DNA from: a virus
Reading direction: 5' to 3' (one strand)
Length of the DNA: 64,000 bases
Virus record (IMG/VR): IMGVR_UViG_3300023184_007611
Span: 1-64,000 of that record
Of this stretch, positions 18,585-64,000 are shown piece by piece. A program made the translations under genes and the position numbers. Position 1 is the stretch's first letter; each line of letters begins with the position of its first letter. Below the pieces are notes generated by a model that searched no databases, was not told the DNA's origin, and was given only the letters and a program-made list of their open reading frames with translations.

Positions 18585-18923
18585 TTAGCAGCGACATTTC
18601 CAAACCCTTAAAGCTGCATTAATTTTGCTATTTGGGTCATTAGCAGTTTCTGCTGATGTATTTTTCTTTTTGTGACCGCACATTCTGGCACAGAATGATT
18701 TTCTTCTTGCTTTTGTTTTTTTTGACATTTTATCAACGCCACCTTTTTTTTCGGCTTCACGCTTAGTTTCTATTCCTGCGTGGATACCTAATTTTTTGGC
18801 GTAGGATGGTTTGAGTCCACCTTCTGGATGGTTTTTTTCTTTGTTGAAATTTTTGAATGGTTTTTTAGTTTCATCCAACATTTCAGGATCACGATTTTGC
18901 AGCCATTCTTTAAAGTTTTGCAT
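18585..18923 (-). CDS. DUF6321-like protein with FKxWL N-terminal peptide
   Basis: A 112-residue, very basic protein. The C-terminal part (KKTKARRKSFCARMCGHKKK ... INAALRVWKCRC) matches a phage family I know as DUF6321, with conserved CARMCG and the final W-x-C. The N-terminus MQNFKEWLQNRDPE is the FKxWL-type peptide shared by several unrelated proteins in this window. Lysine/arginine content suggests nucleic-acid contact. A TATAAATA box lies 2 nt before the ATG. Likely a virion-packaged DNA-associated protein (inference). Confidence 0.65.
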   Translation of the reverse strand: MQNFKEWLQNRDPEMLDETKKPFKNFNKEKNHPEGGLKPSYAKKLGIHAGIETKREAEKKGGVDKMSKKTKARRKSFCARMCGHKKKNTSAETANDPNSKINAALRVWKCRC

Positions 18924-18925
18924 AA

Positions 18926-18933
18926 TATTTATA
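18926..18933 (-). promoter_or_regulatory. TATAAATA box directly before the ATG
   Basis: Read on the minus strand TATAAATA ends 2 nt from the start codon at 18923. It equals the T4 late-promoter consensus, and no Shine-Dalgarno sequence is present. See the finding on leaderless-type starts. Confidence 0.4.
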
Positions 18934-18974
18934 TATATTAAAACAATGTAATTTTAATACAAATAAGGTTTGAA

Positions 18975-19715
18975 ATGTTAATTTCTTATTGTACAACATG
19001 TTGCAACAGATTATGGCAATTAGCTTTATCTTTACCAGATAATTTTAAAAGATTAAATAAAAACGAAGAATTAATATTAGTAAATTATGGAAGTACAGAT
19101 AATTTAACTCGTTACATAGAATCAAGTTATGTATGTAGAAAATTAATGGATAAAAATATATTTAAATACATAGATGTTTTAGATGTAAGTAAATATCATT
19201 GTTCAAAAGCAAAAAACATAGCACATAGATTTGCAAGTGGTAAATTTTTAATTAATCTTGATGCTGACAATACTAATTATCTAATTAATAAAAGCATTTT
19301 AAGTACTAAAAATAGAAATAAAGCATTGGTTCATTTATGTTCAAATGTTTATCCAAATGGAACTTATGGAAAGATATGCATACCTAAACATATTTTTTAT
19401 AAATTAGGAGGATACGATGAGTCTCTTCTTCCAACTGCGTACCAAGATGGAGATATCATGGAAAGAGCAAGAGCTATGAATTTTGAAATTATTAGCAAGC
19501 CAATATTAGTAGATGCAATACCAAATACAATGGAAGAAAAAGTTAATCAAACAGGATTAAAAGATTGGGGTGAATGCTGGCATGCTAATAAAGCTAAATC
19601 AGATTTTAATATTTCAAAAAATAATCTAATTGCAAATAAAGATACTGGATGGGGATATGCAAAAGCAAGAATAAATTTTGGAGAATTGCAAGAATTCAAA
19701 GAAATATTTCCATAA
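18975..19715 (+). CDS. GT2-like glycosyltransferase
   Basis: A 246-residue GT-A protein. ISYCTTCCNRLWQLALSLP at the start resembles the nucleotide-sugar-binding strand of GT2 enzymes with the CNR/NR motif; INLDADNTNYL (about 92-102) is the DxD motif. GGYDESLLPTAYQDGDIMERAR is the galactosyltransferase-like C-terminal motif (GGYDE ... DxD). Similar to N-terminal galactosyltransferase-type GT2/GT7 C-domains. Divergent from the DUF6321 gene across a 51-bp spacer. Confidence 0.75.
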   Translation: MLISYCTTCCNRLWQLALSLPDNFKRLNKNEELILVNYGSTDNLTRYIESSYVCRKLMDKNIFKYIDVLDVSKYHCSKAKNIAHRFASGKFLINLDADNTNYLINKSILSTKNRNKALVHLCSNVYPNGTYGKICIPKHIFYKLGGYDESLLPTAYQDGDIMERARAMNFEIISKPILVDAIPNTMEEKVNQTGLKDWGECWHANKAKSDFNISKNNLIANKDTGWGYAKARINFGELQEFKEIFP

Positions 19716-19747
19716 TATTACAAGTTTTAAATAAGTATAATTTATGT

Positions 19748-19755
19748 TATAATAA
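19748..19755 (+). promoter_or_regulatory. TATAATAA box of the GNAT remnant
   Basis: TATAATAA with four bases to the remnant's ATG, the same spacing as at the intact GNAT gene (20984-20991). The box was copied together with the gene start. Confidence 0.4.
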
Positions 19756-19759
19756 AAAT

Positions 19760-19828
19760 ATGATTAGACATGCAAAATCAGAAGATTTTGATTACCATGG
19801 TTTGAATGCGGTTTATATGGTGAAATAA
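19760..19828 (+). pseudogene. Internally deleted copy of the GNAT gene at 20996
   Basis: A 22-codon in-frame ORF: its first 11 codons (MIRHAKSEDFD) match the start of the acetyltransferase at 20996 (MIRYAKPEDFD) and its last codons (YHGLNAVYMVK) match the end of that protein (YYGLNAVYMVKT). About 127 internal codons are missing. The upstream TATA box and the downstream ATGAAAAAGTCT, which equals the start of the sulfotransferase gene following the intact copy, are also retained. It is a collapsed duplicate of the GNAT-sulfotransferase locus. Confidence 0.85.
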
Positions 19829-19831
19829 TGA

Positions 19832-19867
19832 AAAAGTCTTGAATGCTAATAGACATTCAAGACTTTT
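19832..19867. terminator. Bidirectional rho-independent terminator
   Basis: AAAAGTCTTGAATG (19832-19845), an 8-nt loop, then CATTCAAGACTTTT (19854-19867): a perfect 14-bp stem with A/T ends on both sides. It separates the plus-strand remnant from the minus-strand small gene at 19877. Part of the stem reuses the relic of the sulfotransferase start. Confidence 0.8.
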
Positions 19868-19876
19868 GATAATTGA

Positions 19877-20053
19877 CTAAGAAAGTTTTTTCAGTTCTTC
19901 AATAGCCTTATCAAGCAAGGCTTGTTTCTTGAAGCTGAGTTTTGTGATAGATCCGTCTTCGTTTTTGCCAGATACCCTGTAACTGACATTGATATCGTTT
20001 AAAATAACATCAAATTGATCAACCTTGCTGGTTGGTACATCTAGTATAAACAT
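19877..20053 (-). CDS. 58-residue hypothetical protein
   Basis: ATG at 20053, preceded by AAGGAG, stop TAG at 19877-19879. It encodes a beta-strand-rich first half (MFILDVPTSKVDQFDVILN) and a C-terminal helix (KKQALLDKAIEELKKL). Size and composition suggest a small structural or binding protein. It is the downstream partner of the gene at 20069 (15-nt gap). No recognised family. Confidence 0.6.
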   Translation of the reverse strand: MFILDVPTSKVDQFDVILNDINVSYRVSGKNEDGSITKLSFKKQALLDKAIEELKKLS

Positions 20054-20068
20054 TGTTTTCTCCTTGAA

Positions 20069-20929: not shown

Positions 20930-20983
20930 AGTTCTTCCTTTACATAATTTAAAGTTTCTGCATATCAATATATATAAACAAGC

Positions 20984-20991
20984 TATAATAA
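20984..20991 (+). promoter_or_regulatory. TATAATAA box before the GNAT gene
   Basis: TATAATAA with four bases to ATG 20996; TATAAT to ATG is six bases, the usual -10 to start-site distance. No Shine-Dalgarno sequence lies between, so the transcript would be leaderless. Confidence 0.5.
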
Positions 20992-20995
20992 ATTT

Positions 20996-22239: not shown

Positions 22240-22249
22240 AGGTTTAAAA

Positions 22250-22642
22250 ATGAGTATTATAGAAAACTTCCAATTATATTTGATTAGAAATAAAAAATTA
22301 ACAGAGCTTGACAATCAATGGAAAAATCTATTGAATTCTGGATGGAATTCTGGCCAAGGTTTTAGTATTGGCATATCTGCAAATGATATTGCATTATTAT
22401 CTGGAGCTTATGCATTGGCAAAGGAAGCTTATAATTTAGGATTACCTTTGCCAAAAATAATTGCAATTGATGATTCTATAATAACTTTTAATTCTCTGCA
22501 AGAAATGACAGCATTGATGTTGAATTATGGGAATGCAAGATCAATACTAGCAAGTTCATTTGCCACTAAAAGAAAAGCAATTCAAAATGCTGTAGTGTTA
22601 GAAGAATTAATAGCAATTGATACAAACTTGTCTATTGTTTAA
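22250..22642 (+). CDS. DUF4376-like / tail-fibre-assembly-like protein
   Basis: A 130-residue helical protein. The segment ISANDIALLSGAYALAKEA plus SLQEMTALMLNYGNARSILA and the closing FATKRKAIQNAVVLEEL resembles the DUF4376 domain found in phage tail-fibre and assembly proteins. In that domain a helix pair is followed by a Y-G-x-A-R turn. The match is by pattern only. It overlaps the 3' end of the minus-strand gene by 11 nt. Confidence 0.4.
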   Translation: MSIIENFQLYLIRNKKLTELDNQWKNLLNSGWNSGQGFSIGISANDIALLSGAYALAKEAYNLGLPLPKIIAIDDSIITFNSLQEMTALMLNYGNARSILASSFATKRKAIQNAVVLEELIAIDTNLSIV

Positions 22643-25855: not shown

Positions 25856-25860
25856 TTAAT

Positions 25861-25868: not shown

Positions 25869-25905
25869 GTCAAAATTAAAATTTAATTAATTGATATATA
25901 AAATC

Positions 25906-27234
25906 ATGGAATTTAAATTATGGTTAGAATATAAAGAATCTTACGCAGAAACAGAAATTGATGTTTTCATCAAAAAAATAAAAAATATTGTTATGTCTTC
26001 TATGAATATAAAAGAAAATTATGCATCATTTTCCTTTCCTAAAAATTATGAAATTCTAATTGGATCTTTTCCAAGTAAAATGCGTCAACCTTTGTTAGCT
26101 GCCCATACTCAATATAATGGTGCCGTTATAAAAGAAGGAGAAAGAGAACCAAAAGGCAAGGGGGCGTATGAAGCTGGAGTCGAACAAGGATTAATTGTTC
26201 CTTTTGATTCACCAAAAGATGTTGATGTATTTCAAAAAGTTATTACTGATAATATTAGATTCGTAGCCAGAGACATGGGATATTTATTTGAAATAGATAC
26301 ATTCTTATATCTCCTTCAAAAGAACTTAAAAAATATATCATCTAATACTGAAGATATTAAGTTTAAAAAACAAAAATATTCTAAAAACATAGAAGGAAGA
26401 ATAAAAAACAAAATAGTTTACAATAAATTAATAGAACTAATATCTGGACATGCAGAAGATTTAGCAAGTCAAATTTACAACAGAGCAACATCAGCAGAAA
26501 TATGCAATGGTAAAATAGATCAAGTTGAATTCCTTGGTGGCGGTAGTTACGGTAGTGGAGCAAATCATGATATAGCAGATATTAAAATTGGTTGTGGCTT
26601 AGATAAAATGGGATTCTCAGTCAAATTTACTTCTGAGGCTAAAGTACCATATAGACATTTAAGTTTAATGACAACATATAAAATGCTTGGTGGTAATGAT
26701 CCTGATCAATTCGAATTCGAAGTCAAAAAAGCAGGGAAAGAAGCAGAAATTGTTATACTTCAAAATTTATATGATTTAGTAAAAAATTATAATGTAGAAG
26801 ATTTTATAAATTTATTAAACAATATATTAACATCTAACAGCTATACTTTCCCAGCAGTTAGAAATTATTTTAGAGGGGCTGGCGGTGCTCAATGGTCTGT
26901 TGGTATGCAGAGGGATTTTAATACTTCTGATACTCCTAAAACTCCTTTATCTGCCAAAGAAGGTGCTACAATTAATGTTATTGTAAACAAAACTTATGTT
27001 AAGCTTTTATATAAATTAAAAGGCGGATCTAAAAATGGCACATATATAACTTTTCATCCATATACTAGTTATAATAGTGAATCTGAAGAGCCTTTAGGTG
27101 ATAATTGGGATGTAGATCCTTGGGATGTAGATGCAAAGGCTTCAAGTAATTCATTGTCAAATTTTTCTATTGAAGTGCATGTAAATAATATAGCAACTGA
27201 TAGATTTTACAGATTTGATAAACTTAAAAAATAA
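25906..27234 (+). CDS. Hypothetical protein with FKxWL N-terminal peptide
   Basis: A 442-residue protein; ATG 25906 is preferred over the TTG at 25891 because the peptide MEFKLWLEYKESYAE then leads the protein, as in several other genes here. The middle (GGGSYGSGANHDIADIKI ... MGFSVKFTSEAK) contains D-x-K and S-V-K strands in the order of a PD-(D/E)XK core, but I cannot assign catalytic residues with certainty. The C-terminal region is beta-rich. Possibly a co-packaged or structural protein. Confidence 0.6.
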   Translation: MEFKLWLEYKESYAETEIDVFIKKIKNIVMSSMNIKENYASFSFPKNYEILIGSFPSKMRQPLLAAHTQYNGAVIKEGEREPKGKGAYEAGVEQGLIVPFDSPKDVDVFQKVITDNIRFVARDMGYLFEIDTFLYLLQKNLKNISSNTEDIKFKKQKYSKNIEGRIKNKIVYNKLIELISGHAEDLASQIYNRATSAEICNGKIDQVEFLGGGSYGSGANHDIADIKIGCGLDKMGFSVKFTSEAKVPYRHLSLMTTYKMLGGNDPDQFEFEVKKAGKEAEIVILQNLYDLVKNYNVEDFINLLNNILTSNSYTFPAVRNYFRGAGGAQWSVGMQRDFNTSDTPKTPLSAKEGATINVIVNKTYVKLLYKLKGGSKNGTYITFHPYTSYNSESEEPLGDNWDVDPWDVDAKASSNSLSNFSIEVHVNNIATDRFYRFDKLKK

Positions 27235-27300
27235 AATATAAACAAATAATTATTAATTTTAATAAATAATATTATAAACTATTTCTATTAAAGGAAAAAT

Positions 27301-28680
27301 ATGCAACTACAACCAAAAATCACATTCAAAGTAAAAACAATTAATTATGAGGAGCTTTACAGTACATTTTCTCCTGATGAAAACTTTAATAATATTTTGA
27401 ATAATTTAAGAAATCAAACTGTTTGGATTGAAGGTGTTGATTATTCTTTAAAGGATGGAGATGAATTCACATTATATGGTAAAGAAGCTATGTATGTTTA
27501 CAACCTTTATGTAGCTAATCAAGTGCAACCAAATATAACTTTAGAAATAATATATTTTGGACCTCCTACACCTTCTGTAATTCCTGTCACACCAATTATT
27601 GGAACAGTATGGGGCGTTGGGAACAATGGTAACGGAGAACTTGGTGACGATACAACAGATGACAGATCATCTCCAGTACAGACAATTTGCGGTGGCAGCA
27701 ATTGGGTTGAAATCAATTGTGGCTACTACAATATCGCTGGTTTGAAAGATGATGGAACGCTTTGGACTTGGGGTCAGAATGGCGATGGTGGTTTGGGAGA
27801 TAACACAACTGATGATAAATCATCACCAGTACAAACCATTTGTGGCGGAACTGATTGGAAAACAATGGTGGTCGGAACTTACTATGAACATTGTGCTGCC
27901 ATAAAGAATGATGGTACATTATGGCTTTGGGGTTATAATGAACATGGTGAAATAGGTGACGAAACAACTGATGATAGATCATCACCAGTTCAAACAGTAT
28001 GCGGTGGAACTGATTGGAAACAGATTGCTTCTGGTGGCAATCACACGGCAGCAATAAAGAACAATGGAACTCTTTGGATTTGGGGTAGGAATGGTGATGG
28101 TCAATTAGGTGATGATACAGACGAAGACAAATCATCACCTATTCAAACAGTTTGTGGCGGAACTGATTGGAAATCCGTTTCTTGTGGAGAAAAATTTACC
28201 GCAGCAATAAAAAACAATGGAACTCTTTGGACTTGGGGCGAGAACAATAATGGTCAATTGGGCGATGAAACATCTGACAACAAATCTTCTCCAATTCAAA
28301 CAATCGCTGGCGGAACTGATTGGAAGCAAATTTCTTGTGGTGACAATCACATGATTGCGATCAAGAACGATGGAACATGCTGGACTTGGGGCGAGAATAA
28401 TAATGGTCAATTAGGTGACGAAACAACAGACGATAAATCTTCACCAGTTCAAACGGTTGCATATGGAACTGATTGGAAGCAAGTTGACGGTGGACAGGAT
28501 CATTCCGCTGCAATAAAGAATGATGGAACATGTTGGGTTTGGGGCGACAATGGCAGTGGTCGATTGGGAGTAGATGATAACGACAATAGATCATCACCAG
28601 TTCAAACCATTATGGCAGACACCAACTGGTTATATGTTTCCGCTGGATATGAAACCACCTTTGGAATCAGGAAGGCTTAA
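27301..28680 (+). CDS. RCC1-type seven-bladed propeller with an extra N-terminal domain
   Basis: A 459-residue protein. Residues 1-95 form a domain (PKITFKVKTINYEELYSTF ... LKDGDEFTLYGKEAMY) that also exists as a stand-alone protein at 34431-34730 on the other strand. A Pro-rich hinge (GPPTPSVIPVTPI) leads to seven RCC1 blades (GTVWGVGNN to GTCWVWGDN). Blade consensus here uses GDDTTDDRSSPVQT, a more acidic version than in the 0-3 kb propellers. AAAGGAAAA precedes the ATG. Likely a receptor-binding or fibre protein (inference). Confidence 0.85.
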   Translation: MQLQPKITFKVKTINYEELYSTFSPDENFNNILNNLRNQTVWIEGVDYSLKDGDEFTLYGKEAMYVYNLYVANQVQPNITLEIIYFGPPTPSVIPVTPIIGTVWGVGNNGNGELGDDTTDDRSSPVQTICGGSNWVEINCGYYNIAGLKDDGTLWTWGQNGDGGLGDNTTDDKSSPVQTICGGTDWKTMVVGTYYEHCAAIKNDGTLWLWGYNEHGEIGDETTDDRSSPVQTVCGGTDWKQIASGGNHTAAIKNNGTLWIWGRNGDGQLGDDTDEDKSSPIQTVCGGTDWKSVSCGEKFTAAIKNNGTLWTWGENNNGQLGDETSDNKSSPIQTIAGGTDWKQISCGDNHMIAIKNDGTCWTWGENNNGQLGDETTDDKSSPVQTVAYGTDWKQVDGGQDHSAAIKNDGTCWVWGDNGSGRLGVDDNDNRSSPVQTIMADTNWLYVSAGYETTFGIRKA

Positions 28681-29719: not shown

Positions 29720-30676
29720 ATGTTTATTAAAAAAACCCATAAAGGATTTACATTAATAGAACTTTTAGTTGTAATTGCAATAATCGCAATTTTAATTGGA
29801 TTATTACTACCAGCAGTACAAAAAGTCCGTGAGGCTGCTGCCAAAATGCAATGTGCAAATAATTTAAAACAAATTGGACTTGCTATTCATTCTTATGTTT
29901 CAGCAAACAATGAAACTTTTCCAACTAGTACAAGGCCAGGCGGAGTTACAACATCACCAAGAATAAGCTGGGCAGTTGCAGTTTTACCATTTTTAGAACA
30001 AGACAATTTAGTTAAAACTTATGATTTTAAAACAAATTGGAGTTCTGCAACTAATTTACCAATTACAAAACAAGCAATTAAAATATTTCAATGCCCTGTA
30101 GCTCCTGATTCATCAAGGCTTGATGGTGATCCTCAAAATGGAACATGGGATATTGTTGCTACAACAGATTATGCAGCAATTACAGGAGTAAGTCCAATTG
30201 CTACAAATGTAAATACTTCAGGATTTGCAATACCTGGAATTATGGAAAAGAACAAAACAGTAAAAATATCATCTGTAATGGATGGTCTATCTAACACATT
30301 AGCTATTGTAGAATCTTCTGGTCGCCCTTTTTTATATAGAAAAGGTGTTAAAATTGGATCTGTTCCAGCAGTCAAAGTAAATGGTGGAGGTTGGTGTAGA
30401 CCTGCATCAGATTTAGACTTCATATCTTCTGATGCTACTGGAGCAACTTATCCTGGCAGTTGTGCTGTTAATTGTACAAATGGTTTTGATTATACATCTT
30501 ATAATATGGTTCCATTCGGAACTGAAGGTACTGGTCAACCTTATTCATTTCATACTAATGCTATAAATGCATTAATGGGAGATGGATCTGCAAGGACAAT
30601 TAATAGCAATATATTAATTAATATATTTGCTGCATTAGTTACAAGGGCAAATGGCGAAGTTATTGGTGATTTTTAA
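29720..30676 (+). CDS. DUF1559 pseudopilin-like protein (planctomycete type)
   Basis: A 318-residue protein with a classic type IV prepilin N-terminus: KGFTLIELLVVIAIIAILIG, Gly-Phe cleavage/methylation site, then the hydrophobic spine and PAVQKVREAAAKMQC. This exact continuation plus the C-terminal H-x9-DG feature (SFHTNAINALMGDGSART) defines the DUF1559 family, which is expanded by the hundred in planctomycetes and is rare elsewhere. It is codon-adapted to this AT-rich genome. The exact role of the family is unknown; the prepilin peptidase of the host would be needed. Strong hint to the host or source of the gene. Confidence 0.9.
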   Translation: MFIKKTHKGFTLIELLVVIAIIAILIGLLLPAVQKVREAAAKMQCANNLKQIGLAIHSYVSANNETFPTSTRPGGVTTSPRISWAVAVLPFLEQDNLVKTYDFKTNWSSATNLPITKQAIKIFQCPVAPDSSRLDGDPQNGTWDIVATTDYAAITGVSPIATNVNTSGFAIPGIMEKNKTVKISSVMDGLSNTLAIVESSGRPFLYRKGVKIGSVPAVKVNGGGWCRPASDLDFISSDATGATYPGSCAVNCTNGFDYTSYNMVPFGTEGTGQPYSFHTNAINALMGDGSARTINSNILINIFAALVTRANGEVIGDF

Positions 30677-32744: not shown

Positions 32745-32993
32745 ATGGATAATATAAATTTCAAGGATTGGTTGATAATGAAAGAAAATAAAAGAAAATT
32801 AATAAATTTAGATAAGACACCTAAAGCTCCAAAAGGTAAAAATGTAATTATTAAATTGGGAAAAGTTCAACCTGATACATTATTTAGTGATAGGGGACAT
32901 ATACATATAAAAAACGGTGGGGCACATGAAAAAACCCATACTAGAGGCGAAGAAAAGATAAAATGGAATAAAGATCAAGACTATTTAAAGTAA
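32745..32993 (+). CDS. Small basic protein with FKxWL N-terminal peptide
   Basis: An 82-residue protein starting MDNINFKDWLIMKENKRK, then Lys/Pro-rich and containing two His-rich segments (RGHIHIKNGGAHEKTHTRGEE) that could bind metal or nucleic acid. Part of the group of proteins with the common N-terminal peptide. The body is not recognised. It overlaps the 3' end of the minus-strand methyltransferase by 13 nt. Confidence 0.55.
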   Translation: MDNINFKDWLIMKENKRKLINLDKTPKAPKGKNVIIKLGKVQPDTLFSDRGHIHIKNGGAHEKTHTRGEEKIKWNKDQDYLK

Positions 32994-37358: not shown

Positions 37359-39089
37359 TTAAGTTTTTATAGCAAAAGTCGTATAACCTTCAAAAGATGC
37401 AGTACATTGAACCCAATTAGAACCGCTTGCTATTAATTGAACAGGAGAAGAACATTTATACCCAGAATAACTTCCATTTTGATTTTGCCCTAATTCACCG
37501 AAAAGATTTCTTCCCCAACTCCATAATGTTCCATCTTTTTTTATTCCAATTGTATAAGTAGCACCACATGAAACTTGCAACCAATTATTTCCAATTGCCT
37601 TTACAGGTGAGTAATTAAATTCTTGATTACTTGTTTGATTGTTTCCAAATTGTCCAAAGCCATTAGTGCCCCAACACCAAAGTGTTCCATTTTTTTTAAT
37701 CGCTGCTGTATGAGTTTTACCTAAAGATATTTGGTCCCAGCCTGTTCCAATTTGGCGAATTTTAGGATTGCCATCATCTTCGCCTTTTTGATAGTTTAAA
37801 CCCCAAGTCCAAAGTGTTCCATTTTTTTTAATCGCTGCTATTTTGTTGTAACCACAGAAAACCTTATCCCAATCATTTCCACCAATTTTTGTTTGAAATG
37901 GTGCTCCTAATGATTGTATTCCTGAATTAGTCCACAAGAATCCTGATAAATTAGATCCCCATACCCAAAGTGTACCATTTGTTTTAACTGCTGTTGTTAT
38001 GTAATGGCCACAAGATACTTGCTTCCAGTTATTACCAAATGCTACAGTTTGAGTTGGAGATGATCTTCCAGTCCTATAATCATTCCAACCATTTCCTAAT
38101 TCCCCATATAAATTTAACCCCCAAGTCCAAAGTGTTCCATTTTTTTTAATGCCTGCTGTGTGGTAGCTTCCACAAGAAATTTGCTCCCAGTTAAAATCTT
38201 TGTCGCAAGTTTGAACTGGCTCTTTTACAAAATTATCTTTATCTGGCTTATTTATATCAACACTTTTATTATCTCCAAGTTGATTGTATAAAAATGACCC
38301 CCAACACCACAATGTTCCGTTTGTTTTAATTCCTGCTGTATGTTGAACTCCACATGATACTTCTTTCCATTTATCTGTTCCAATTATAGTTTGAATAGGA
38401 GAACTTTTATCAATTGAATTACCGTTTCCTAATTGATATGAATCGTTTCTTCCGAATCCCCATAATGTACCATAAGAAGTTGGAGTTGGTGCTTCTGGAG
38501 GCAAAGGACGACTTATTATTTGTGATTTTTCGGCAATTACATATCCTGGCTTTTTCCAAGTGCAATAATTATCTTCTGGACTATAAATATATATTTTACA
38601 AGTCCTTATAAATTCAAATTTTTTAAGTCTTCTATTGTAATAATAAAAGTTTATATCTCTTTTTATTGGAAATTTAATGTCTTTACATTTTGAAATTCCG
38701 TAATATGATGAATTTTTTAAATCTTTTGAATAAAAATAACTTTCTGGCACTGGATCTTTAGTTTCTATGGTTATTTTAATTGAATACTTAATCCAAGGAA
38801 GTCCAATTTTGCATTTAGAATTATTGCATTTTCCTAAACTTACTGTTACTCCAACATTATAGTCTGTATAGTCACTTTTAATAGGCAATCGTAATCCTTG
38901 GATTATATAATTTTTATAATCTCTATGCATAATAAATCCGTCCCAATTACTAAGCTCATTAGTCTCTGGTTTTAATGAAAAAATATGATTTCCAAACTTT
39001 GGGTTCTCAATTAGAACATTTAAAAGTTTTCCTTTTTTTAAATTATCTCCTCTAAGACAATCAAACCAAGGTGTATTCTTAGATGCCAT
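37359..39089 (-). CDS. RCC1-type seven-bladed propeller with a large N-terminal domain
   Basis: A 576-residue protein. Residues 1-190 form a unique domain (FDCLRGDNLKKGKLLNVLI ... KNYIIQGLRLPIKSDYTDYN ... YYGISKCKDIKFPIKRDINF), with a Pro-rich hinge (RPLPPEAPTPTSYGTLW) before seven RCC1 blades (GTLWGFGRN to GTLWSWGRN). Two blades carry insertions, one with extra KPDKDN residues. Fourth propeller of the window and the largest base domain. Its 3' end meets folA, and the start faces the Thr-repeat protein. Probable fibre or adhesin part (inference). Confidence 0.8.
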   Translation of the reverse strand: MASKNTPWFDCLRGDNLKKGKLLNVLIENPKFGNHIFSLKPETNELSNWDGFIMHRDYKNYIIQGLRLPIKSDYTDYNVGVTVSLGKCNNSKCKIGLPWIKYSIKITIETKDPVPESYFYSKDLKNSSYYGISKCKDIKFPIKRDINFYYYNRRLKKFEFIRTCKIYIYSPEDNYCTWKKPGYVIAEKSQIISRPLPPEAPTPTSYGTLWGFGRNDSYQLGNGNSIDKSSPIQTIIGTDKWKEVSCGVQHTAGIKTNGTLWCWGSFLYNQLGDNKSVDINKPDKDNFVKEPVQTCDKDFNWEQISCGSYHTAGIKKNGTLWTWGLNLYGELGNGWNDYRTGRSSPTQTVAFGNNWKQVSCGHYITTAVKTNGTLWVWGSNLSGFLWTNSGIQSLGAPFQTKIGGNDWDKVFCGYNKIAAIKKNGTLWTWGLNYQKGEDDGNPKIRQIGTGWDQISLGKTHTAAIKKNGTLWCWGTNGFGQFGNNQTSNQEFNYSPVKAIGNNWLQVSCGATYTIGIKKDGTLWSWGRNLFGELGQNQNGSYSGYKCSSPVQLIASGSNWVQCTASFEGYTTFAIKT

Positions 39090-39228
39090 TTATTTCCTTT
39101 TATTTTTTAAAAAATTATAAATACTCTTAGATAAACAAATATTACTTTAATTATTTATTAAACTTACAAATTTTTAAAAAATAATAATACATATGCAATA
39201 CAAGCAATTAATTATTACGGAGCATAAA

Positions 39229-42102
<2,874 letters not shown>

Positions 42103-51259: not shown

Positions 51260-51538
51260 ATGAAATCATTTAATTCATGGATGCATAAAAAAGAAAAAAA
51301 ATACAACTTTGATGATGTACTCAGATTGGCTAAATTAGCTAATGTAGATAAAAAAGAACTAAATAAATATGAAGAAAAACAATTAATTGATGGTATTAAT
51401 TCAGAAAAAGAACATGCAATCGGTAAATTTAATGTAATTGGTAAAAACGAAGAAAAAATACTTAAAATTGCTTTAGCTCACCTTGAAGAAGATAAAGAAT
51501 ATTATTCTAAGCTTAAAAATTGCGTAGAAAAGAAATGA
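51260..51538 (+). CDS. DUF5661-like protein with MKSFxSW N-terminal peptide
   Basis: A 92-residue protein. KIALAHLEEDKEYYSKLK at the end matches the DUF5661 signature (KIAxAHLxExPxYYxxL), and INSEKEHA fits the family's EHxx turn. The N-terminus MKSFNSWMHKKEKK is again the recurrent peptide of the window. The family is often found in phages and adjacent to virion genes; function unknown. Confidence 0.65.
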   Translation: MKSFNSWMHKKEKKYNFDDVLRLAKLANVDKKELNKYEEKQLIDGINSEKEHAIGKFNVIGKNEEKILKIALAHLEEDKEYYSKLKNCVEKK

Positions 51539-52915: not shown

Positions 52916-53596
52916 ATGAAAAGTTTTGAAATTTATTTAATTGAACAAGATTTAATTCAAACCATCGGCATCTCAAGAAAACAATTGTATTGTGAAAGTT
53001 TATTAAAAGAAAATTTTCAAGTAAATGAATTTCTAAGTTTATTGCCATCTATGCTTGGTTTACTCGGATCAAGCAAACCTAAAGATGTTGAAAGTGAAGT
53101 AAAACAAAAAGATAAAAAATCATTTGTTATAGAATTTTTAAAAAGTGCTGTTAAAAAATTGGGATTGTTAGTTGTTATTGGTGCATTACTTTACTTAGGT
53201 GTAAAAACTGGAATAATAGCACAGTTATTAGGCTGGGCTGGGACTATAATTAAAAATATAGTTATGTGGATACTTTCTTTTGCTGGGGATAAAATTAAAG
53301 CAATGCTAGAAAAAGCTTATGTAGAATTCAATGGTTTTGTAGTTGATACTGCATCACAAATTAATGATAAAACTGGAGAAGCTGGAGAATATCTAAAAGA
53401 TCTATTCAAAAAAGGCACTGGAACATTTGGAAATCCAGATGTTGGTAATGCTTGGAAGAATCCACAAGAAACAGATTTTCTAGGAAGAGGCAGAACTATT
53501 TTAACTCCAAAAGAAGATCCCAAGCCAATAGATTGGGATGGAATAAATGATTTCTTTAGAGATAAAAAATTAATTGATCCAGGTTTGTTAAAATAA
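52916..53596 (+). CDS. Membrane-embedded protein with MKSFEIYLIE N-terminal peptide
   Basis: A 226-residue protein. It starts MKSFEIYLIEQDLIQ, which fits a cleavable [LI]-x-E peptide, and has a hydrophobic stretch about 76-125 (LGLLVVIGALLYLGVKTGII, LGWAGTIIKNIVMWILSFAG) of two or three helices. A soluble, Pro/Asp-rich tail follows. Clear paralogue of the protein at 58133 (FIQSAMKKIGTLAVAGALLFL against FLKSAVKKLGLLVVIGALLYL). AAAAGGAAC precedes the ATG. A membrane-active internal virion protein is plausible. Confidence 0.6.
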   Translation: MKSFEIYLIEQDLIQTIGISRKQLYCESLLKENFQVNEFLSLLPSMLGLLGSSKPKDVESEVKQKDKKSFVIEFLKSAVKKLGLLVVIGALLYLGVKTGIIAQLLGWAGTIIKNIVMWILSFAGDKIKAMLEKAYVEFNGFVVDTASQINDKTGEAGEYLKDLFKKGTGTFGNPDVGNAWKNPQETDFLGRGRTILTPKEDPKPIDWDGINDFFRDKKLIDPGLLK

Positions 53597-53736: not shown

Positions 53737-54123
53737 ATGAAATTTAAACTTTGGTTTGAAGCTGTCAATCAAAATGTATATGATTTTATAAATTATTTTA
53801 ATAGACTTGGAAATCCCAATCCTTTAAGCGATGAAGCACATTATATAATAGACAATAGAACTTTAATAAAATACACATTAACTACATCTATAGAACCAAA
53901 TACAGTTTACTTTGATTCTCTTATTGTAATACCACAGAAAACAGGTGCTGGTACTAATTTCATGAATAAGATAATACAAAAGGCAGATGAGTTAAAAGTT
54001 AATATTTCTTTACATGCAATACCATTGCCAACAAAAGATGAATTAAGTAAAGCAAATTTGTATAAATTCTACAGAAAATTTGGTTTCAAAGGAACTGAAT
54101 ATATGACTAGAAAACACAATTAA
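53737..54123 (+). CDS. GNAT-like acetyltransferase with FKxWF N-terminal peptide
   Basis: A 128-residue protein. MKFKLWFEAVNQNVYDF is the recurrent peptide. The GNAT core: VYFDSLIVIPQKTGAGTNFM carries a Q-x-T-G-x-G-T acetyl-CoA loop, and NLYKFYRKFGFKGTEYMTRK is motif B. That it carries this peptide suggests it may be delivered with the genome. Another GNAT of ordinary build is at 20996. Confidence 0.65.
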   Translation: MKFKLWFEAVNQNVYDFINYFNRLGNPNPLSDEAHYIIDNRTLIKYTLTTSIEPNTVYFDSLIVIPQKTGAGTNFMNKIIQKADELKVNISLHAIPLPTKDELSKANLYKFYRKFGFKGTEYMTRKHN

Positions 54124-54450: not shown

Positions 54451-54900
54451 ATGAAAATAATTATGTTGTGCAACAACAATTTTAAAAATAAATTTAAAAT
54501 GATAGATATTATTATGAGTTATTCACCTACTAATAATCAATCTTGGCTAGACCCTTCTGGAAATTTTCATCCTATTGATAGGAAAGATTCTGGAGATGGT
54601 TTTTTAACGCACGAACAATGGGCTAAAAATAAGGGATATAAATTAAAAGGATTATATAAAAAGGGATGGCTTAGAATTAAAAAATATGGTGATACATTGT
54701 GGGCGAGTAACGCTGAGAAAGTACCACCTAATTACAAACAAGAAAGAGAATTACAGAACTGGGCTAGTGAAAATCCAGTTTTTAAAAAAATTTCTTTTGA
54801 TAATGGAGAAAAAGAAATAATTATTTGGTCTAGATTATCAGAATATTACGAAGTAAATTTCAAAGAATGGTTTGATTCTAAAGAAAAAATAATTAATTAA
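54451..54900 (+). CDS. Hypothetical phage protein
   Basis: A 149-residue protein; the real start may be ATG 54514, giving MSYSPTNNQSWLDPSGNFHP. The core pattern W-L-D-P-x-G-x-F-H-P ... THEQWA ... GWLRIKKYGDTLWA ... PPNYKQERELQNWASENPVF ... IIWSRLSEYYE reads like a protein family I have seen in large phages, with alternating short beta and helical parts. Function unknown. Confidence 0.5.
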   Translation: MKIIMLCNNNFKNKFKMIDIIMSYSPTNNQSWLDPSGNFHPIDRKDSGDGFLTHEQWAKNKGYKLKGLYKKGWLRIKKYGDTLWASNAEKVPPNYKQERELQNWASENPVFKKISFDNGEKEIIIWSRLSEYYEVNFKEWFDSKEKIIN

Positions 54901-57245
54901 ATCTTATAATCCCTTGCTTCTCTTGTAGAATCTCCTCTGTATGCTTTATCAATCTGTTCTGGAGATGCTTGTTGCTGTTGCTGTTGTTCTGGGAATATAG
55001 ATTTATAACCTTCTTCTCCAACTTTATCTTTTATTAAATCTCTTGTAGTTCTTGGTATCTTTTCGTTTCCAATTGTATCTACAATAAATTTGATAGTTGA
55101 AATTGCATCATTATCTATTTTTTCAAAAGACCACTTTAATATTTTTGCAAATAAATTTATACTAGTATTTTCATGATTTTGACTTATATCAGAATGATGA
55201 GTATCTTTTTCATAACGATCAATATCTCTGGCATCGTCTAATTTTGAAGCAAAATTCTGAAAGAATCTTCTGAACATAACAATGTATTTAGAACTACCAC
55301 CAAGATAGCCTCTCATCTTTTGAATTAGATCTGGTATGCTATTAATTGGCATTTTATTTGAATAGCTGCTTAAAACATGCAATAAATTTATAATTTTAAC
55401 TTTGTCATCGTGAAATTGATAAAATTTGCTCTTCATACTATCATGGTTACTTAATATATCATCTATTAAAACTTGACATTTTGAACTTGATCTTAAAAAA
55501 TCAGTCAAAAATTTAACATTGTTTTTGTTTTTCTGTTTTAAAATTTCAGATATAAAATCAGAATTTTTACAAGTAATTAAATTTTTTATTTCATCCGTAA
55601 ATTCTAAGCTTGGATTTTCTTCATATTTTCTAAAAAAACTATAAGAAGTTGATATGACATCTTTAAAATAACCTTTAAATAATGTTTTGAATTCTGCTTT
55701 CTTATCTTCTGGAAGATTAAGATAATCATCTAACTTTATATAATTATATTTATCGTGATTACTATTATTTGGTGATATAAATCTAGTACCATCACCTTTA
55801 AACAAGGTTTTAATTTCTGTTTTTTTATCTTCTGGGAAATTTAAATAATCTTCAAGTTTTATTGAATTGCTTAACATTAAATTTGAAACATCATTTTTAA
55901 ACAAGGTTTTAATTTCTGTTTTTTTATCTTCTGGAAGATTTAAATAATCTTCAATTTTCATATTGCCATGTGATATATAATCTTTAATTTTATCGCCATA
56001 TTTTTCTGCCAACTCTTGTTTGTATTTTGGTGGCATGGCTAAATATTCTTGTGCTCCTAGCTGTTTATTTGGTAGGCCATTCATTCTTGCGTTAAGATAA
56101 TTTAATTTTAAATCTTTAAAATAAGGATTGTTAAGAACAAGGTTCAATTGCTTACCATGCAAAATTATACCAAGTGATACATGTATTTTTAAAAGTGGCT
56201 CAGATCTAGTTGTAACTAGAAAATTGAATTGTTCATCTGAAAGGGCGTGTCCTCTACTAAGATAATTCTTTCTTTCTTCATATGTTAAAGATTTGAACCA
56301 TTCTAAGTCAAGATTGCTGTTACCTAATTTTTCATGTTCTGATTCTTCTTTTGGTGTTTTTGGTTCATTTTTAAAGACAGTGGTATCAACGCCTTTTTCT
56401 TTTAAATATTTAAAATATAAATCTGGGTCTGATGTTATTCTTTTTGGTGTAGTTTCATATGGATCTTGCATGAAACCATTTGTTTGATTTTGTCCATCAG
56501 TAATTTCAATACCGTTTCTCGTAGCATCAACTACAACGACTTTAAGATCATCCCCAAGATTTCTTGTATTATCATAAACAAAGTAGAAAGTTGAATCTTT
56601 GGTATTCCTGTAACCATGAAATTGTGAATTGCCAGGTTGAGATATGCAAAACCTTTGGCCTCTACCAAGAATAATACACTTGTCAACTGCGTTAGCTTTA
56701 TAAACCTTTATCTTTTCATCTGGTGATTTTGCAATTAATTCTTGATCGCTTACATCCCCTGTGGTTTTTTGTAAGGTTTGGTGGAATTTCTTTTTTTCTT
56801 CATCTTCATTTTCGCTATTTTTAGAATGTACAGCAGATGCCCAATCAATATAATTTGAATATGGATTTCCTGTATCTTTGGGTTTCCCTATAATATAGTT
56901 CCCAGTTACAACTCCATTATCATCAAATGATAAAATAGGAAGTTGGTTTGCTATTACAAATTTATAATAGTCTTTTAAATCTTGAGAGAATTCTCCTTCG
57001 CCAACTGATGGGTTTGTTTTGTACACATAAGCTGCTGTTGGATAAATGTTTTTTTGTTGTGCTTCAGGAATGCCAGAAGCGGTAAATATCTTATTGAATT
57101 CATTTGTTGTTTTTATAATATTAGGATCAGTACTAAGAACAGGCTTGCCAGCATTATCAACTGTATTACCAAGTATTTTAAAAGCCAAAGCCTTTGGTTT
57201 TAATTCTTCTAATATTAATAGCCATTCTTGAAAATTAAAGTTCAT
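54897..57245 (-). CDS. Large repeat-containing protein with N-terminal peptide
   Basis: A 782-residue protein starting MNFNFQEWLLILEELK, the recurrent peptide with an I-x-E site. Around residue 190-245 DKCIILGRGQRFCIS plus FHGYRNTKDSTFYFVYDNTRN resembles a family of large phage proteins. Residues about 395-560 carry four or so repeats YLxLPEDKKTEIKTLFKGD. The C-terminal helical part ends in QQQQQ. No enzymatic motif recognised. Likely packaged or structural (inference). Its end overlaps the 3' end of the gene at 54451. Confidence 0.6.
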   Translation of the reverse strand: MNFNFQEWLLILEELKPKALAFKILGNTVDNAGKPVLSTDPNIIKTTNEFNKIFTASGIPEAQQKNIYPTAAYVYKTNPSVGEGEFSQDLKDYYKFVIANQLPILSFDDNGVVTGNYIIGKPKDTGNPYSNYIDWASAVHSKNSENEDEEKKKFHQTLQKTTGDVSDQELIAKSPDEKIKVYKANAVDKCIILGRGQRFCISQPGNSQFHGYRNTKDSTFYFVYDNTRNLGDDLKVVVVDATRNGIEITDGQNQTNGFMQDPYETTPKRITSDPDLYFKYLKEKGVDTTVFKNEPKTPKEESEHEKLGNSNLDLEWFKSLTYEERKNYLSRGHALSDEQFNFLVTTRSEPLLKIHVSLGIILHGKQLNLVLNNPYFKDLKLNYLNARMNGLPNKQLGAQEYLAMPPKYKQELAEKYGDKIKDYISHGNMKIEDYLNLPEDKKTEIKTLFKNDVSNLMLSNSIKLEDYLNFPEDKKTEIKTLFKGDGTRFISPNNSNHDKYNYIKLDDYLNLPEDKKAEFKTLFKGYFKDVISTSYSFFRKYEENPSLEFTDEIKNLITCKNSDFISEILKQKNKNNVKFLTDFLRSSSKCQVLIDDILSNHDSMKSKFYQFHDDKVKIINLLHVLSSYSNKMPINSIPDLIQKMRGYLGGSSKYIVMFRRFFQNFASKLDDARDIDRYEKDTHHSDISQNHENTSINLFAKILKWSFEKIDNDAISTIKFIVDTIGNEKIPRTTRDLIKDKVGEEGYKSIFPEQQQQQQASPEQIDKAYRGDSTREARDYKI

Positions 57246-57949: not shown

Positions 57950-57966
57950 AATAAATATATATAATT

Positions 57967-58146
57967 ATGGAAGAAATGATTGATTGTTATGAGTGTTCAT
58001 TTTGTAAATTAAAATTCAATTGTAATAGTTATTGGAAAGGCCAAGGAAATCCAAATAAATGCCCTGAATGTAACTGTGAACAATTAATTTATAAATATTG
58101 TGCAATAATATATTTAAATTCTAGGACTCCTAATGAAAACATTTGA
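57967..58146 (+). CDS. Small zinc-finger protein
   Basis: A 59-residue ORF (ATG 57967, TGA 58144-58146) overlapping the next gene by 14 nt. CYECSFCKLKFNC and CPECNCEQL give two CxxC-type pairs, a zinc ribbon. TATATA precedes the ATG. Probably a small regulator or nucleic-acid-binding protein. Confidence 0.55.
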   Translation: MEEMIDCYECSFCKLKFNCNSYWKGQGNPNKCPECNCEQLIYKYCAIIYLNSRTPNENI

Positions 58147-58600
58147 AATTTACATGATTGAAGAAGATTTTTTAAGAACATATAATTTAAAAAGAAATGA
58201 ACTTTTTTTAGAAATTTTTGGGTTTTTTGATATAGCACCATCACAAGGACCAGCATATTCAAGAGAATTCGCAAGCAGGAAAAATACAAACCCAAGGAAG
58301 GTATTCATTTCTGATGATGATACCTTGTTTGATAAATTTATTCAAAGTGCAATGAAAAAAATAGGAACACTTGCGGTTGCTGGTGCTTTGCTTTTTCTTA
58401 AGTTTTCATATAAATCAATTTATCACATTCTTAGATTTGCTGGAAAAATATTGATAAAAATATTAAAATATTTAGGTGCAATAAGTGCAAATGTATTAAA
58501 CAATTTATATATTTCACTTAAAGATTATCTTAAAAAAAGCAACGATTTTACAGTTGAAGAAAAACAAAAAATAGAAGAAAAATTAAATAAAAATAAATAA
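58133..58600 (+). CDS. Membrane-associated protein with MKTFEIYMIE N-terminal peptide
   Basis: A 155-residue paralogue of the gene at 52916: same N-terminal peptide (MKTFEIYMIEEDFLR), same hydrophobic region (FIQSAMKKIGTLAVAGALLFL, IYHILRFAGKILIKILKYLG). It lacks the long C-terminal tail. The N-terminal peptide resembles T4 internal-protein targeting peptides. Possible membrane-inserting ejection protein (inference). Confidence 0.6.
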   Translation: MKTFEIYMIEEDFLRTYNLKRNELFLEIFGFFDIAPSQGPAYSREFASRKNTNPRKVFISDDDTLFDKFIQSAMKKIGTLAVAGALLFLKFSYKSIYHILRFAGKILIKILKYLGAISANVLNNLYISLKDYLKKSNDFTVEEKQKIEEKLNKNK

Positions 58601-58616
58601 CTTAAAAGATATTAAT

Positions 58617-59273: not shown

Positions 59274-59279
59274 ATTTAA

Positions 59280-60485: not shown

Positions 60486-60692
60486 GGCAAACTCCTTTAC
60501 CAAAGTAATATTTATTATTATTATGATTGTGCATGACAAAGACAAGATTTAAATTTTTTTTTTAAGTATATAATTTAAATATTAACTTAATCCAAGGGAT
60601 ATATTTAAAATTAATCTTCAATTAATTTTACTTAATATTTAATTGAAACATAAAATTTAAAAATTAGATATATTTTTTATTTTTTCTAAATT

Positions 60693-61401: not shown

Positions 61402-61517
61402 TAAAAAATTTCCTTTTTATTAACACATAAATTTTTTGTTAACATGTAATTTATATACAGTCAATAAATAAAAAATTTTACTACAGTAATACATAATAAA
61501 AAAGGAGATTTGCTAAC

Positions 61518-62342
61518 ATGAGGAAAATATTTAAAAATCTATCTGGTGAAGGTTCATCTACGCCACCGCCTGCGACAACATCAGAGCCAACTACAACTGC
61601 TTCACCTACGACAACATTAGAGCCAACTACAACTGCTTCACCTACGACAACATTAGAGCCTACTACAACACCACCTACTACAACACCACCTACTACAACT
61701 GCTTCACCTACGACAAAACCTCCTACTACTACTAAAAAACCTACAACAACTACAACAACTACTACTCCAAATTGTGTTGCTGACCTTAAAACATATAAGT
61801 CGTATTGTTCGCAAGAAACTACAGACTTAGCAAGTAAAAAAGATAAAATAGCTTCACGCAAAACTAAATTATCAGATAAAAAAACTAAAGAAGGCGAATT
61901 GAAAACAGCACAACAAAATTATAAAGAAAATGTAAGTGCCTACAAAAAAGCTTTAGCAGCCAGAAACAAAGATATTGAAAACATTGCTGCACAAAAAAAA
62001 ATAATTGCAGCAAAAACTAAAATAATTAATGATCCAAACTCAACTAAAAAAGCTAAAAATGATGCAATAATAGCAAAGAAAAATGCTATTGCTGCAAATG
62101 TAAAAAACCAAGCAAGTTATGATAAACATACAGCAACATATGAAAAAGCATTTAAAGATGCAAGTTTTTATGATAAATTGAAAAATTCTTTGGAAAGTTC
62201 AATTGCAAGTCTAACAAAACAAATTAATGCTTTAGATAAACAAATACAAGCCCTAACTGATAGCTTATCAGCACTTAATCAATCTAAGTCAGATTTAAGA
62301 AATACTATGGTTGATAGAGGATGCAATGAGCCTTCTTGCTAA
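61518..62342 (+). CDS. Threonine-rich / coiled-coil protein, family A
   Basis: A 274-residue protein, paralogue of the gene at 47074. Residues 12-85: Thr/Pro repeats (EPTTTASPTTT, PPTTTPPTTTASPTTK), then a Cys (PNCVADLKTYKSYC), a long coiled coil of Lys/Ala/Asn heptads and a CxxxxC-like end (DRGCNEPSC). It starts basic (MRKIFKNLSGEG). AAAAAGGAG is before ATG. Presumably an extended oligomer displayed on the virion or the cell, with a glycosylatable head region. Confidence 0.65.
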   Translation: MRKIFKNLSGEGSSTPPPATTSEPTTTASPTTTLEPTTTASPTTTLEPTTTPPTTTPPTTTASPTTKPPTTTKKPTTTTTTTTPNCVADLKTYKSYCSQETTDLASKKDKIASRKTKLSDKKTKEGELKTAQQNYKENVSAYKKALAARNKDIENIAAQKKIIAAKTKIINDPNSTKKAKNDAIIAKKNAIAANVKNQASYDKHTATYEKAFKDASFYDKLKNSLESSIASLTKQINALDKQIQALTDSLSALNQSKSDLRNTMVDRGCNEPSC

Positions 62343-62369
62343 TAAATGATCATCATAAGCAATAAAATA

Positions 62370-62377
62370 TATAAATA
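62370..62377 (+). promoter_or_regulatory. TATAAATA box before the 62383 gene
   Basis: TATAAATA, the T4 late consensus, five bases from ATG 62383, without a Shine-Dalgarno sequence. Confidence 0.45.
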
Positions 62378-62382
62378 AATCT

Positions 62383-64000
62383 ATGGACTTTAAAAAATGG
62401 TTATTATTAATTGAAACAGATGTTAAGAACTGGGAAAATGAAATAAAATCTTCTTCTTACAGTAGATCTTTTGCATTTGAAAATTGGTTTCCTACAGAAG
62501 GCAGAGTTTATATTCCATTTGAATCAGAAGAATCAGAAGATTCAAAAATTGATAAAGATATAGAAAACTATTTTAAAGACCATGAAAAGTATGAAATATT
62601 AGATTATCCTAAAGGATTAGCTGCTGATAAAATTTCAAAAAGACCAATGAAAATTGGAAAAATATTAGAAATGGAAGCTAAAAAAGAAGAAAATAAAATA
62701 AAATCATCTTATGAAAACAAACAAATTTCAGATATTAAATATCAAGACGAATTAAAATGGCATAAAGAATACTACAAAGGCCTTTTATCTACATTCACTT
62801 CGTCTAAGTATAGAGTTGGAGTTAAATCTACATCACCATATATGATAGTCTTCAGTAGCATTCCTGAAGATATTGCTGCAATGTCTACTAATCGTAATTG
62901 GACATCATGTATGAATCTTCAAGGTGGAGCAAACAGAGAAAGCGTATTTTGTGAAATAAAAAATGGTGGATTTATAGCTTATCTTTGTCTTAAAGATGAT
63001 AAAAATATTGAAAAACCATTAGCAAGAGTGCTTATCCGTAGATTTGATAATAAAGCAGGTAAATCAATAGCAGTATTAGAAGAAAGTGTTTATGGAAATT
63101 CTTTAGATGGATTCGAACAACAAGTTCAAAAATGGATTGATTCAAAACAAGGTAAAATAAAACCAGCTAAATATATTCGCAAAGGTGGCTGGCATTCAGA
63201 TACATTTGGAACTGCTGACCCTGATGATAGTGTTCAACGACAACGCAGAGATATGACAAAAATATTTTATCCCAAAACAGCTGATGGTCTGTTTAAAATG
63301 CTAGAGAAAAAAAGAGAACCAGAAGTCACAAGAGACATATTACAAAAGTTACTTGATCCAAATTTAGTACTTGATGAAGAAAACAAAACTAAACTTATTA
63401 ATTTAATAAACTCTGAATGGACTATCAATACTTTTGTATACAATCTTTACGCTGCTGATTTCAAAAGAAAATTATTTTTAAAATATCCTGAACTTTTAAA
63501 TAACCAAGAATTTTCTAATTTAAGAACTTATGATCGAGAAAAATTAGCTAGAAATAATCCAAAATTTAAAGAACTTCAAAAAGATTTAGCAATTAATGCA
63601 ATATTATCTTTTGACCCAAGCAATCCATCTTTAAAAATACACAATCCTGAATATGGTAGACCAGAAGCTTACAGTCAAATTACTGATATTGTTTTAGATT
63701 TTTCTGGTACAGGCAAATTAACAGAACCTTTAATTCGTAAATTAGTTGAAATTTCAGAATACTTTTTAAAAATATATGAAGCTGAAAAAGATAAAAGTTG
63801 GGGAGGGCCATTTGGAATCATCAAACATATCCTTGGTTTTTTAAGCAATGGAGATGCAGATACACCTACTGTCATAAAATTTTACAGTCGTTTATTACCA
63901 TATTTTAACGATGATTTATTTATGGATGGATTAGGAACTGCATTGGCTCGATTAGGAGAAAATGGCAGACAATTTTTGCCATTTTTACAACAAAAATTAC
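62383..64000 (+). CDS. Large hypothetical protein with N-terminal peptide (partial)
   Basis: At least 539 codons, still open at the window end. Starts MDFKKWLLLIETDVKNW with a perfect L-x-x-I-E-type peptide. Around residue 160-185 YMIVFSSIPEDIAAMSTNRN and WTSCMNLQGG resemble a conserved segment of uncharacterised large phage proteins (and PcfJ-like proteins), while the C-terminal part is helical, HEAT-like (LIRKLVEISEYFLKIYEAEK). Similar in plan to the protein at 54897. Function unknown; probably virion-associated. Confidence 0.55.
   Translation, partial: MDFKKWLLLIETDVKNWENEIKSSSYSRSFAFENWFPTEGRVYIPFESEESEDSKIDKDIENYFKDHEKYEILDYPKGLAADKISKRPMKIGKILEMEAKKEENKIKSSYENKQISDIKYQDELKWHKEYYKGLLSTFTSSKYRVGVKSTSPYMIVFSSIPEDIAAMSTNRNWTSCMNLQGGANRESVFCEIKNGGFIAYLCLKDDKNIEKPLARVLIRRFDNKAGKSIAVLEESVYGNSLDGFEQQVQKWIDSKQGKIKPAKYIRKGGWHSDTFGTADPDDSVQRQRRDMTKIFYPKTADGLFKMLEKKREPEVTRDILQKLLDPNLVLDEENKTKLINLINSEWTINTFVYNLYAADFKRKLFLKYPELLNNQEFSNLRTYDREKLARNNPKFKELQKDLAINAILSFDPSNPSLKIHNPEYGRPEAYSQITDIVLDFSGTGKLTEPLIRKLVEISEYFLKIYEAEKDKSWGGPFGIIKHILGFLSNGDADTPTVIKFYSRLLPYFNDDLFMDGLGTALARLGENGRQFLPFLQQKL

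Follow-up and report, generated by a model that had tools for sequence, protein, structure and literature searches.

Why do proteins that have nothing else in common begin with the same few residues? The question is raised by the IMG/VR virus record IMGVR_UViG_3300023184_007611 (label G000), a 101,045-base sequence classed as linear and probably a fragment, whose positions 1-64000 form the window analysed here. A first-pass annotation had noticed at least nine proteins in this window that share an N-terminal peptide, hereafter the tag, of the form M-x(0-4)-F-x-x-[WY]-[LMF], and had likened it to the peptides that direct the internal proteins (IPs) of phage T4 into the capsid. All nine N-termini exist where that annotation placed them (Table 1).

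Judging from sequence and from the analogy with T4, we consider it highly probable that what these N-termini share is a T4-type capsid targeting sequence (CTS), greatly expanded, and we infer docking, cleavage, encapsidation and injection of its carriers. By means of two aromatic residues, spaced three apart, and an aliphatic one after them, the short peptide would dock a protein on the core of the assembling prohead. After assembly, a gp21-type (S77) protease would cut behind a Glu with L/I/M at P3 and free the mature protein inside the head, from which it would be expelled together with the DNA and act at an early stage of infection. The results computed directly concern the motif, its statistics, its conservation at the protein level, its fit to the T4 residues, the coupling between P3 and Glu, bodies found with and without the tag, and the co-occurrence of protease, scaffold-like and major capsid protein (MCP) genes. 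Our best reading of the phages is that they are uncultivated relatives of the phage record LR756511 (595 kb) with T4-type heads, one such genome tagging 30-40 different proteins.

The shared N-terminus exceeds chance

The first-pass annotation had named an equal frequency of the pattern in random N-termini as a ground for refutation, and the counts came out in its favour. In the window, 8 of 87 first-start open reading frames (ORFs) match, compared with 0.38 after shuffling, and none of 1000 shuffles reaches 8; none of 233 internal Met positions matches. Across the whole record the pattern occurs in 15/126 first-start ORFs against 0.49 expected when residues 2-20 are shuffled (again 0/1000 shuffles reach this count) and at one of 344 internal Mets. 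Furthermore, a DNA pattern for MNFKxW(L/F)(L/F) retrieved 75 stretches from IMG/VR, among which most true ORF starts reach a Glu no later than about 9-12 residues from the Met and spurious in-frame matches mostly do not.

The motif was also recovered without supervision. An expectation-maximization (EM) search of 614 N-termini from the relatives G004 (251 kb) and G006 (181 kb) returned [NTSK]-F-K-[EDQN]-[WFY]-[LI]-x-[NE] as its top motif, present in 13-16% of proteins, with a log-likelihood ratio (LLR) of 328, where shuffled N-termini gave 131. LR756511 alone independently yielded a motif of this kind (LLR 234 versus 120 shuffled). The 81 N-termini of the window gave no motif above shuffles (LLR 100 versus 97) and the search of the record's own N-termini did not find it; the null on the window reflects too few proteins, so that larger genomes are needed.

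We then scored N-termini with a tag profile trained on G004 and G006, all other scored genomes lying outside the training set. N-termini scoring at least 9 numbered 14 in G000 (0.65 in shuffled sequences), 14 in its near relative G016 (87 kb; 0.68), 20 in G008 (165 kb; 1.0), 32 in G004 (1.5), 40 in G006 (0.85), 30 in LR756511 (1.8) and 6 in P-SSM2 (0.57). The larger relatives, LR756511 included, thus carry about 30-40 tagged proteins each, and none was found in the phiKZ-like phage AR9, in SPO1 or in the first 140 kb of phage G. Shuffles, internal Mets and control genomes together rule out chance or composition as the source of the motif.

The tag fits the targeting and cleavage residues of T4

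A T4 review (PMC9026906) assigns the targeting of IPIII chiefly to residues 4 and 7 and its processing to residues 8 and 10, and proposes that the CTS may allow T4-like phages to load varied proteins. The proposed T4 analogy stands: the Phe, the W/Y/F three residues on, the aliphatic residue and the Glu are the classes mapped by mutation in IPIII, and aromatics three apart near positions 4 and 7 are what the unsupervised search returned as F-x-x-[WFY]. The IPIII N-terminus, TYQEFIAE after MK, aligns with the EM motif. When the unchanged profile was applied to 231 T4 ORFs, IPIII and IPII ranked joint third and IPI tenth. Rank 1 fell to T4 gene 61.1 (54 aa, MKTFKEFIKED; L132:8966-9130, T4 record 18966-19130), which adjoins the anti-toxin genes dmd, tifA and 61.2/adfA.

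In the tag the Glu mostly follows the second aromatic at +2 to +5; in T4 it does so at +3. If this Glu belongs to a gp21-type site, L/I/M is expected at P3 wherever the Glu falls, and enrichment was observed there. With Glu at +4, L/I/M stands at +2 in 34/51 tags compared with 57/269 otherwise (p=5e-10); with Glu at +5, it stands at +3 in 42/99 compared with 21/221 (p=5e-11). The coupling persisted when only the longer fetched records were kept and similar tags were collapsed (p=3e-7 and 5e-6). In the collapsed set P2 showed no coupling, and P4 was null at one spacing (p 0.75) and marginal at the other (p=0.048).

One tag on many bodies

The bodies behind the tag had been described as unrelated, and this agrees with our data: the consensus built from 99 tagged proteins of relatives hardly extends past MxxFxxWLxxxE, and 33 different Pfam families are matched among them. 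As to the individual labels given in the first pass, DUF5661 is solid, DUF6321 lies just below the cut-off and GNAT is weak. Tagged payloads include ankyrin repeats, DUF5661, DUF4379, poly(A) polymerase/tRNA nucleotidyltransferase, polynucleotide-kinase-like AAA, NUDIX, HAD RNA-repair, tRNA-ligase phosphodiesterase, C39-like peptidase and SNF2 helicase proteins. It is plausible that the RNA repair enzymes and nucleotide hydrolases among them serve in counter-defence.

DUF6321 occurs both tagged and untagged among 22 homologous loci, about half of which begin with F-x-x-W-[LV] near the Met. Many tagged forms continue with RDPEMLNE or ILDE, L-[ND]-E often closing the tag where the shared core begins. 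In most untagged forms the common core KKPFKGFN begins a few residues after the Met. Cores sharing about 70-90% identity are found in both forms, so that the tag is removable and the body exists without it. In the window's DUF6321 protein cleavage is predicted after L-D-E, where relatives have L-N-E, and such a cut would leave a start about where the untagged forms begin. In G036 and G046 the contig that carries a tagged DUF6321 also encodes S77 and gp23; G040 has an untagged DUF6321 and no tagged protein at all. In the structure prediction (predicted local distance difference test, pLDDT, 70) the tag is a short low-confidence helix apart from the core, and the predicted structure gave no significant fold match.

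Body searches omitting the first 16 residues showed that most homologues of the record's tagged proteins are tagged as well, sometimes with very different residues; the exceptions were a G005 relative of the 54897 protein, scoring 0.9, and a G006 relative of the 68897 protein. A run of five paralogues in G005 (L464, G005:162680-171185) starts M-[RK]-F-x-E-W-L-R-I-D-E-[LI]-[ST]-x-[ML]-S-Q.

We lean, with less assurance than for the targeting function itself, towards seeing the tag in this clade as a general export code, a removable address of 10-20 residues that would turn an acquired gene into an injected effector. With similar, moderate confidence we suggest that this code would deliver a repertoire of dozens of proteins (RNA-repair enzymes, hydrolases, ankyrin and DUF proteins), some ten times the known T4 set and readable from sequence. 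DUF6321 would then be a body caught gaining or losing its tag.

Relatives carry a T4-type head-assembly module

Of the 34 IMG/VR records found to bear the tag, nine match Peptidase_S77 (E 1e-19 to 1e-31) and 11 match gp23, those without such a match being mostly fragments. A gp21-type S77 protease, a scaffold-like gene (about 300 aa) and a gp23-type MCP were seen in G003, G004, G006, G036, G046, LR756511 and others, and the three adjoin each other in most head-bearing relatives. The clade's S77 proteases share the invariant catalytic His and Ser with T4 gp21, and several have [LM]-N-E close to their own N-termini. In 8/8 aligned MCPs, [LIMF]-N-E immediately precedes the shell domain, in the part of the protein at which gp23 of T4 is cleaved. 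The scaffold-like proteins contain 13-19 [LIM]xE sites where about 8 are expected.

Tags are frequent around close S77 relatives (6/99 proteins, 0.18 expected) and rare around distant S77 phages (2/998, 0.67 expected), and we therefore assign the tag to one branch of S77 phages rather than to all. Around HK97-type proteases the rate was 1/1151 (0.44 expected), a control weaker than its numbers because its loci are near-identical to one another. In G004, two of the tagged genes are no more than 3 kb away from the gene for the protease. G000 (67397-68897) and G004 (131530-133030) have in common a pair of genes with a tagged gene next after it.

Weighing the evidence

Several observations weigh against a T4-type targeting sequence. 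The first-pass annotation had reported [LI]-x-E shortly after the tag in several of the proteins. In our data the hydrophobic P3 tracks the Glu, but an exact [LIM]xE within seven residues past the second aromatic was present in only 86/263 anchor matches, compared with 57 in shuffled sequences. In many tags, therefore, the cut may come later in the sequence, at a site with V/F at P3, or not at all. T4 Alt, a packaged protein, lacks the motif. In the census the motif was at or near chance in SCTP-2 and immuto, both S77 phages, and distant marine S77 phages lack it near their own head genes. Conversely, Staphylococcus phage K has four strict matches (0.25 expected), for example MDFNQFINNE and MENYKNFIIEE, and no S77 protease was found in it.

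A further point concerns the window's own phage. A prohead protease and a scaffold-like gene, whose kind the first-pass annotation had proposed to look for, are present in clade relatives, an outcome in its favour for the clade. No head gene was found in the window's record, nor in G008 and G005, the relatives nearest to it (up to 189 kb). In searches of the near relatives for S77, gp23, portal and terminase, the only match was a terminase in G002 (381 kb). The protease of this phage is therefore placed by relatedness to LR756511, G036 and G004. G008 shares 46 genes with G000 and 46 with LR756511, partly collinear, and many of those shared with LR756511 lie at 326-359 kb of that genome with up to 67% identity. 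In LR756511 the protease, MCP, portal and terminase lie at 523-537 kb, and all detected T4 homologues within 365-565 kb; a fragment of 101-165 kb from elsewhere in such a genome would thus be without the head genes. By relatedness, then, the window's phage would have a T4-type head and an S77 protease.

Among the alternatives, one holds that the tagged proteins are encapsidated as structural core or DNA-condensing proteins rather than as injected effectors. The position of the two G004 genes near the protease gene would suit this, as would the effect of T4 IPIII on head assembly (PMC9026906). The payloads argue against it, since tRNA nucleotidyltransferase, polynucleotide kinase, NUDIX, C39-like peptidase and SNF2 helicase proteins are enzymes suited to the cell, and we regard it as unlikely. 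Slightly less likely still is that the tag addresses another site, such as a phage replication compartment, the membrane or the tail. Localisation tags in general have this look, two weaker members are on putative membrane proteins, and some payloads are nucleic-acid enzymes. However, the tag matches the T4 IPs and their mapped CTS residues, the coupling of Glu with P3 suits a protease site, tags are in excess near close S77 relatives, and the predicted tag helix, itself of low confidence, is short and does not resemble a signal sequence.

Descent by gene duplication would also make N-termini alike, and paralogues do exist (68897/70320, 54897/73232 and the G005 group starting M-x-F-x-E-W-L-R-I-D-E). 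Yet it is very improbable as a general account: the consensus restricted to the tag, the Pfam diversity and the DUF6321 pairs rule out simple paralogy for the whole set. Finally, the conserved feature could lie in the DNA, as a promoter, ribosome-binding or recombination element over the start codon. A TATAAATA-like octamer, starting at about -12, does occur in excess upstream of the tagged genes of five genomes (p 1e-3 to 1e-5; for example L001:4882-4896), and the MNFKxWL genes of the record have a common upstream sequence. Against this, the choice among synonymous codons for Phe, Lys and Leu within the tag is broadly that of the genome as a whole, tags vary (MKTFNEWL, MLNFKEWL, MSFQQWL) with the residue classes kept, and the coupling of P3 with Glu is a property of the protein; we give a DNA-level element almost no weight, synonymous codon use having ruled it out. 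As for the octamer itself, it is possibly a T4-type late promoter, given its enrichment; it is not clearly present at MCP genes, and phmmer detected no gp55 homologue in G004, G006 or LR756511.

Relation to known systems

The T4-type targeting sequence that we propose shares with the CTS of IPI, IPII and IPIII, processed by gp21, the N-terminal position, aromatics at 4 and 7, an aliphatic residue followed by Glu, unrelated bodies, a hydrophobic P3 at the Glu, and, in relatives, the adjoining S77 protease, scaffold-like gene and gp23. It differs in that the clade's second aromatic is mostly Trp and the spacing of the Glu is variable, whereas that of T4 is set at +3, and in that each larger genome has about 30-40 tagged proteins, with bodies unrelated to IPs, compared with the three known IPs. 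In phiKZ and SPN3US, many head proteins (inner-body and ejection proteins) are likewise cut by a gp21-related protease and ejected (PMC9026906), but the cut is at S/A-x-E, and the accessible accounts of them mention no short shared tag. The clade does not show this phiKZ-type site, its P3 preference being L/I/M and its MCP site [LIMF]-N-E. For DarB of P1, the N-terminus (30 residues) is sufficient for loading a reporter, but no consensus common to the Dar proteins was reported (PMC9024508). Polyvalent and MuF-fused effectors are phage proteins predicted to be loaded into the head and injected (PMC9503650); their loading proceeds via large fused domains and not via a removable peptide of 10-20 residues.

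The accessible part of the open-access literature using the term "capsid targeting sequence" deals mostly with T4, T4-based vectors, P1 and SPN3US. We found no description of a genome-wide tag in huge phages in a literature set whose coverage mostly excludes subscription journals and preprints, and for this reason novelty is provisional. The tag itself appears to be a variant of a known device; what would be new is its scale, its Trp-based form and the tagged/untagged pair.

As a rule, it takes a cultured phage and proteomics to learn which proteins are injected. Should the tag be a targeting sequence, what huge uncultivated phages inject could be listed from their genomes, and the list would include many small uncharacterised proteins as counter-defence candidates. 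T4 offers a testable prediction in gene 61.1, its best-scoring tag, beside known anti-toxin genes.

Tagged proteins and other features of the record

The record holds about 16 tagged ORFs, namely the nine listed in the window, of which seven are well supported and two (52916 and 58133) are weaker variants because the regular expression and the T4 spacing fit but the profile does not, and seven beyond it (68897-84225). Six of these seven start MNFKxWL. MNFKSWLLITE... and MQNFKEWLQNRDPEMLNE... are examples of tagged N-termini.

Table 1. Tagged and possibly tagged proteins of the window
Position	Strand	Protein	N-terminus	Profile score	Remarks
14897..15247	-	further tagged protein, probable; outside the earlier list	MKFKIYVENRD	6.2	G016 homologue, N-terminus MKFKDYVEKRDLLE, scores 11.6
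18585..18923	-	DUF6321 protein	MQNFKEWLQNRDPEMLDE	17.9	body from TKKPFK; DUF6321 E 1.1e-5
22250..22642	+	possible further tag, uncertain	MSIIENFQLYLIRNK	9.4	homologue scores 4.5
25906..27234	+	442-aa protein, body unassigned	MEFKLWLEYKE	9.8	ATG inside an ORF whose start could also be TTG 25891
32745..32993	+	82-aa protein	MDNINFKDWLIMKE	18.0	tagged homologue in G016
51260..51538	+	DUF5661 protein	MKSFNSWMHKKE	7.0	DUF5661 E 4e-9
52916..53596	+	putative membrane protein	MKSFEIYLIEQ	-0.1	variant tag, weaker case; G008 homologue begins MKSFNLYLVEK
53737..54123	+	weak GNAT similarity	MKFKLWFEAVN	12.0	GNAT E 0.019, below cut-off
54897..57245	-	782-aa protein, conserved N-terminal domain and repeats	MNFNFQEWLLILEE	16.0	tagged homologues in G016 and G006
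58133..58600	+	putative membrane protein	MKTFEIYMIEE	-1.6	variant tag, weaker case
62383..64000 (to 64101 of record)	+	572-aa protein	MDFKKWLLLIE	11.2	G016 homologue 97% identical, tagged

Despite its low score, the 51260 protein counts as tagged because its body homologues in G006 and LR756511 carry tags, made up of different residues. IMG/VR scans returned no body homologues of the 25906 protein and no homologues of the protein at 98004 of the record. The structure predicted for the 54897 protein (pLDDT 69) gave no significant fold match.

G016 has homologues of 79/132 G000 ORFs. Searches by phmmer with 34 T4 genes for head, tail and replication gave no match in G000 at E 1e-4; the record encodes a thymidylate synthase, a kind of enzyme present in T4 as well. 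At 29720-30676 lies a pilin-like protein with an N-methylation motif and DUF1559 (E 2e-40), a family known mainly from Planctomycetes, which hints at the host. RCC1-repeat (beta-propeller) proteins at 172-1398, 1882-3051, 27301-28680 and 37359-39089 are possibly surface or fibre proteins. A 969-aa protein at 39193-42102 consists of a lactonase-like propeller and then several hundred residues of TTTKKP-type repeats. Beyond the window, a tandem cluster of related HNH/AP2 proteins with related small genes (L002:3090-6123, record 85590-88623) has homologues in AR9.

Other shared N-termini were seen in two of the phages used for comparison. In Salicola phage SCTP-2, four proteins (for example L134:2173-4380) begin with MRINDLFE, MRLNNLFE, MKIKQLFE or the like, an N-terminus absent from 12 other genomes, and one of its carriers is a body homologue of the tagged 71506 protein. 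In Flavobacterium phage immuto (W04), at least three proteins (1803, 103762, 118588) begin MEN(T)FDLKKFLVEN[KR]LT, possibly a tag of that lineage's own.

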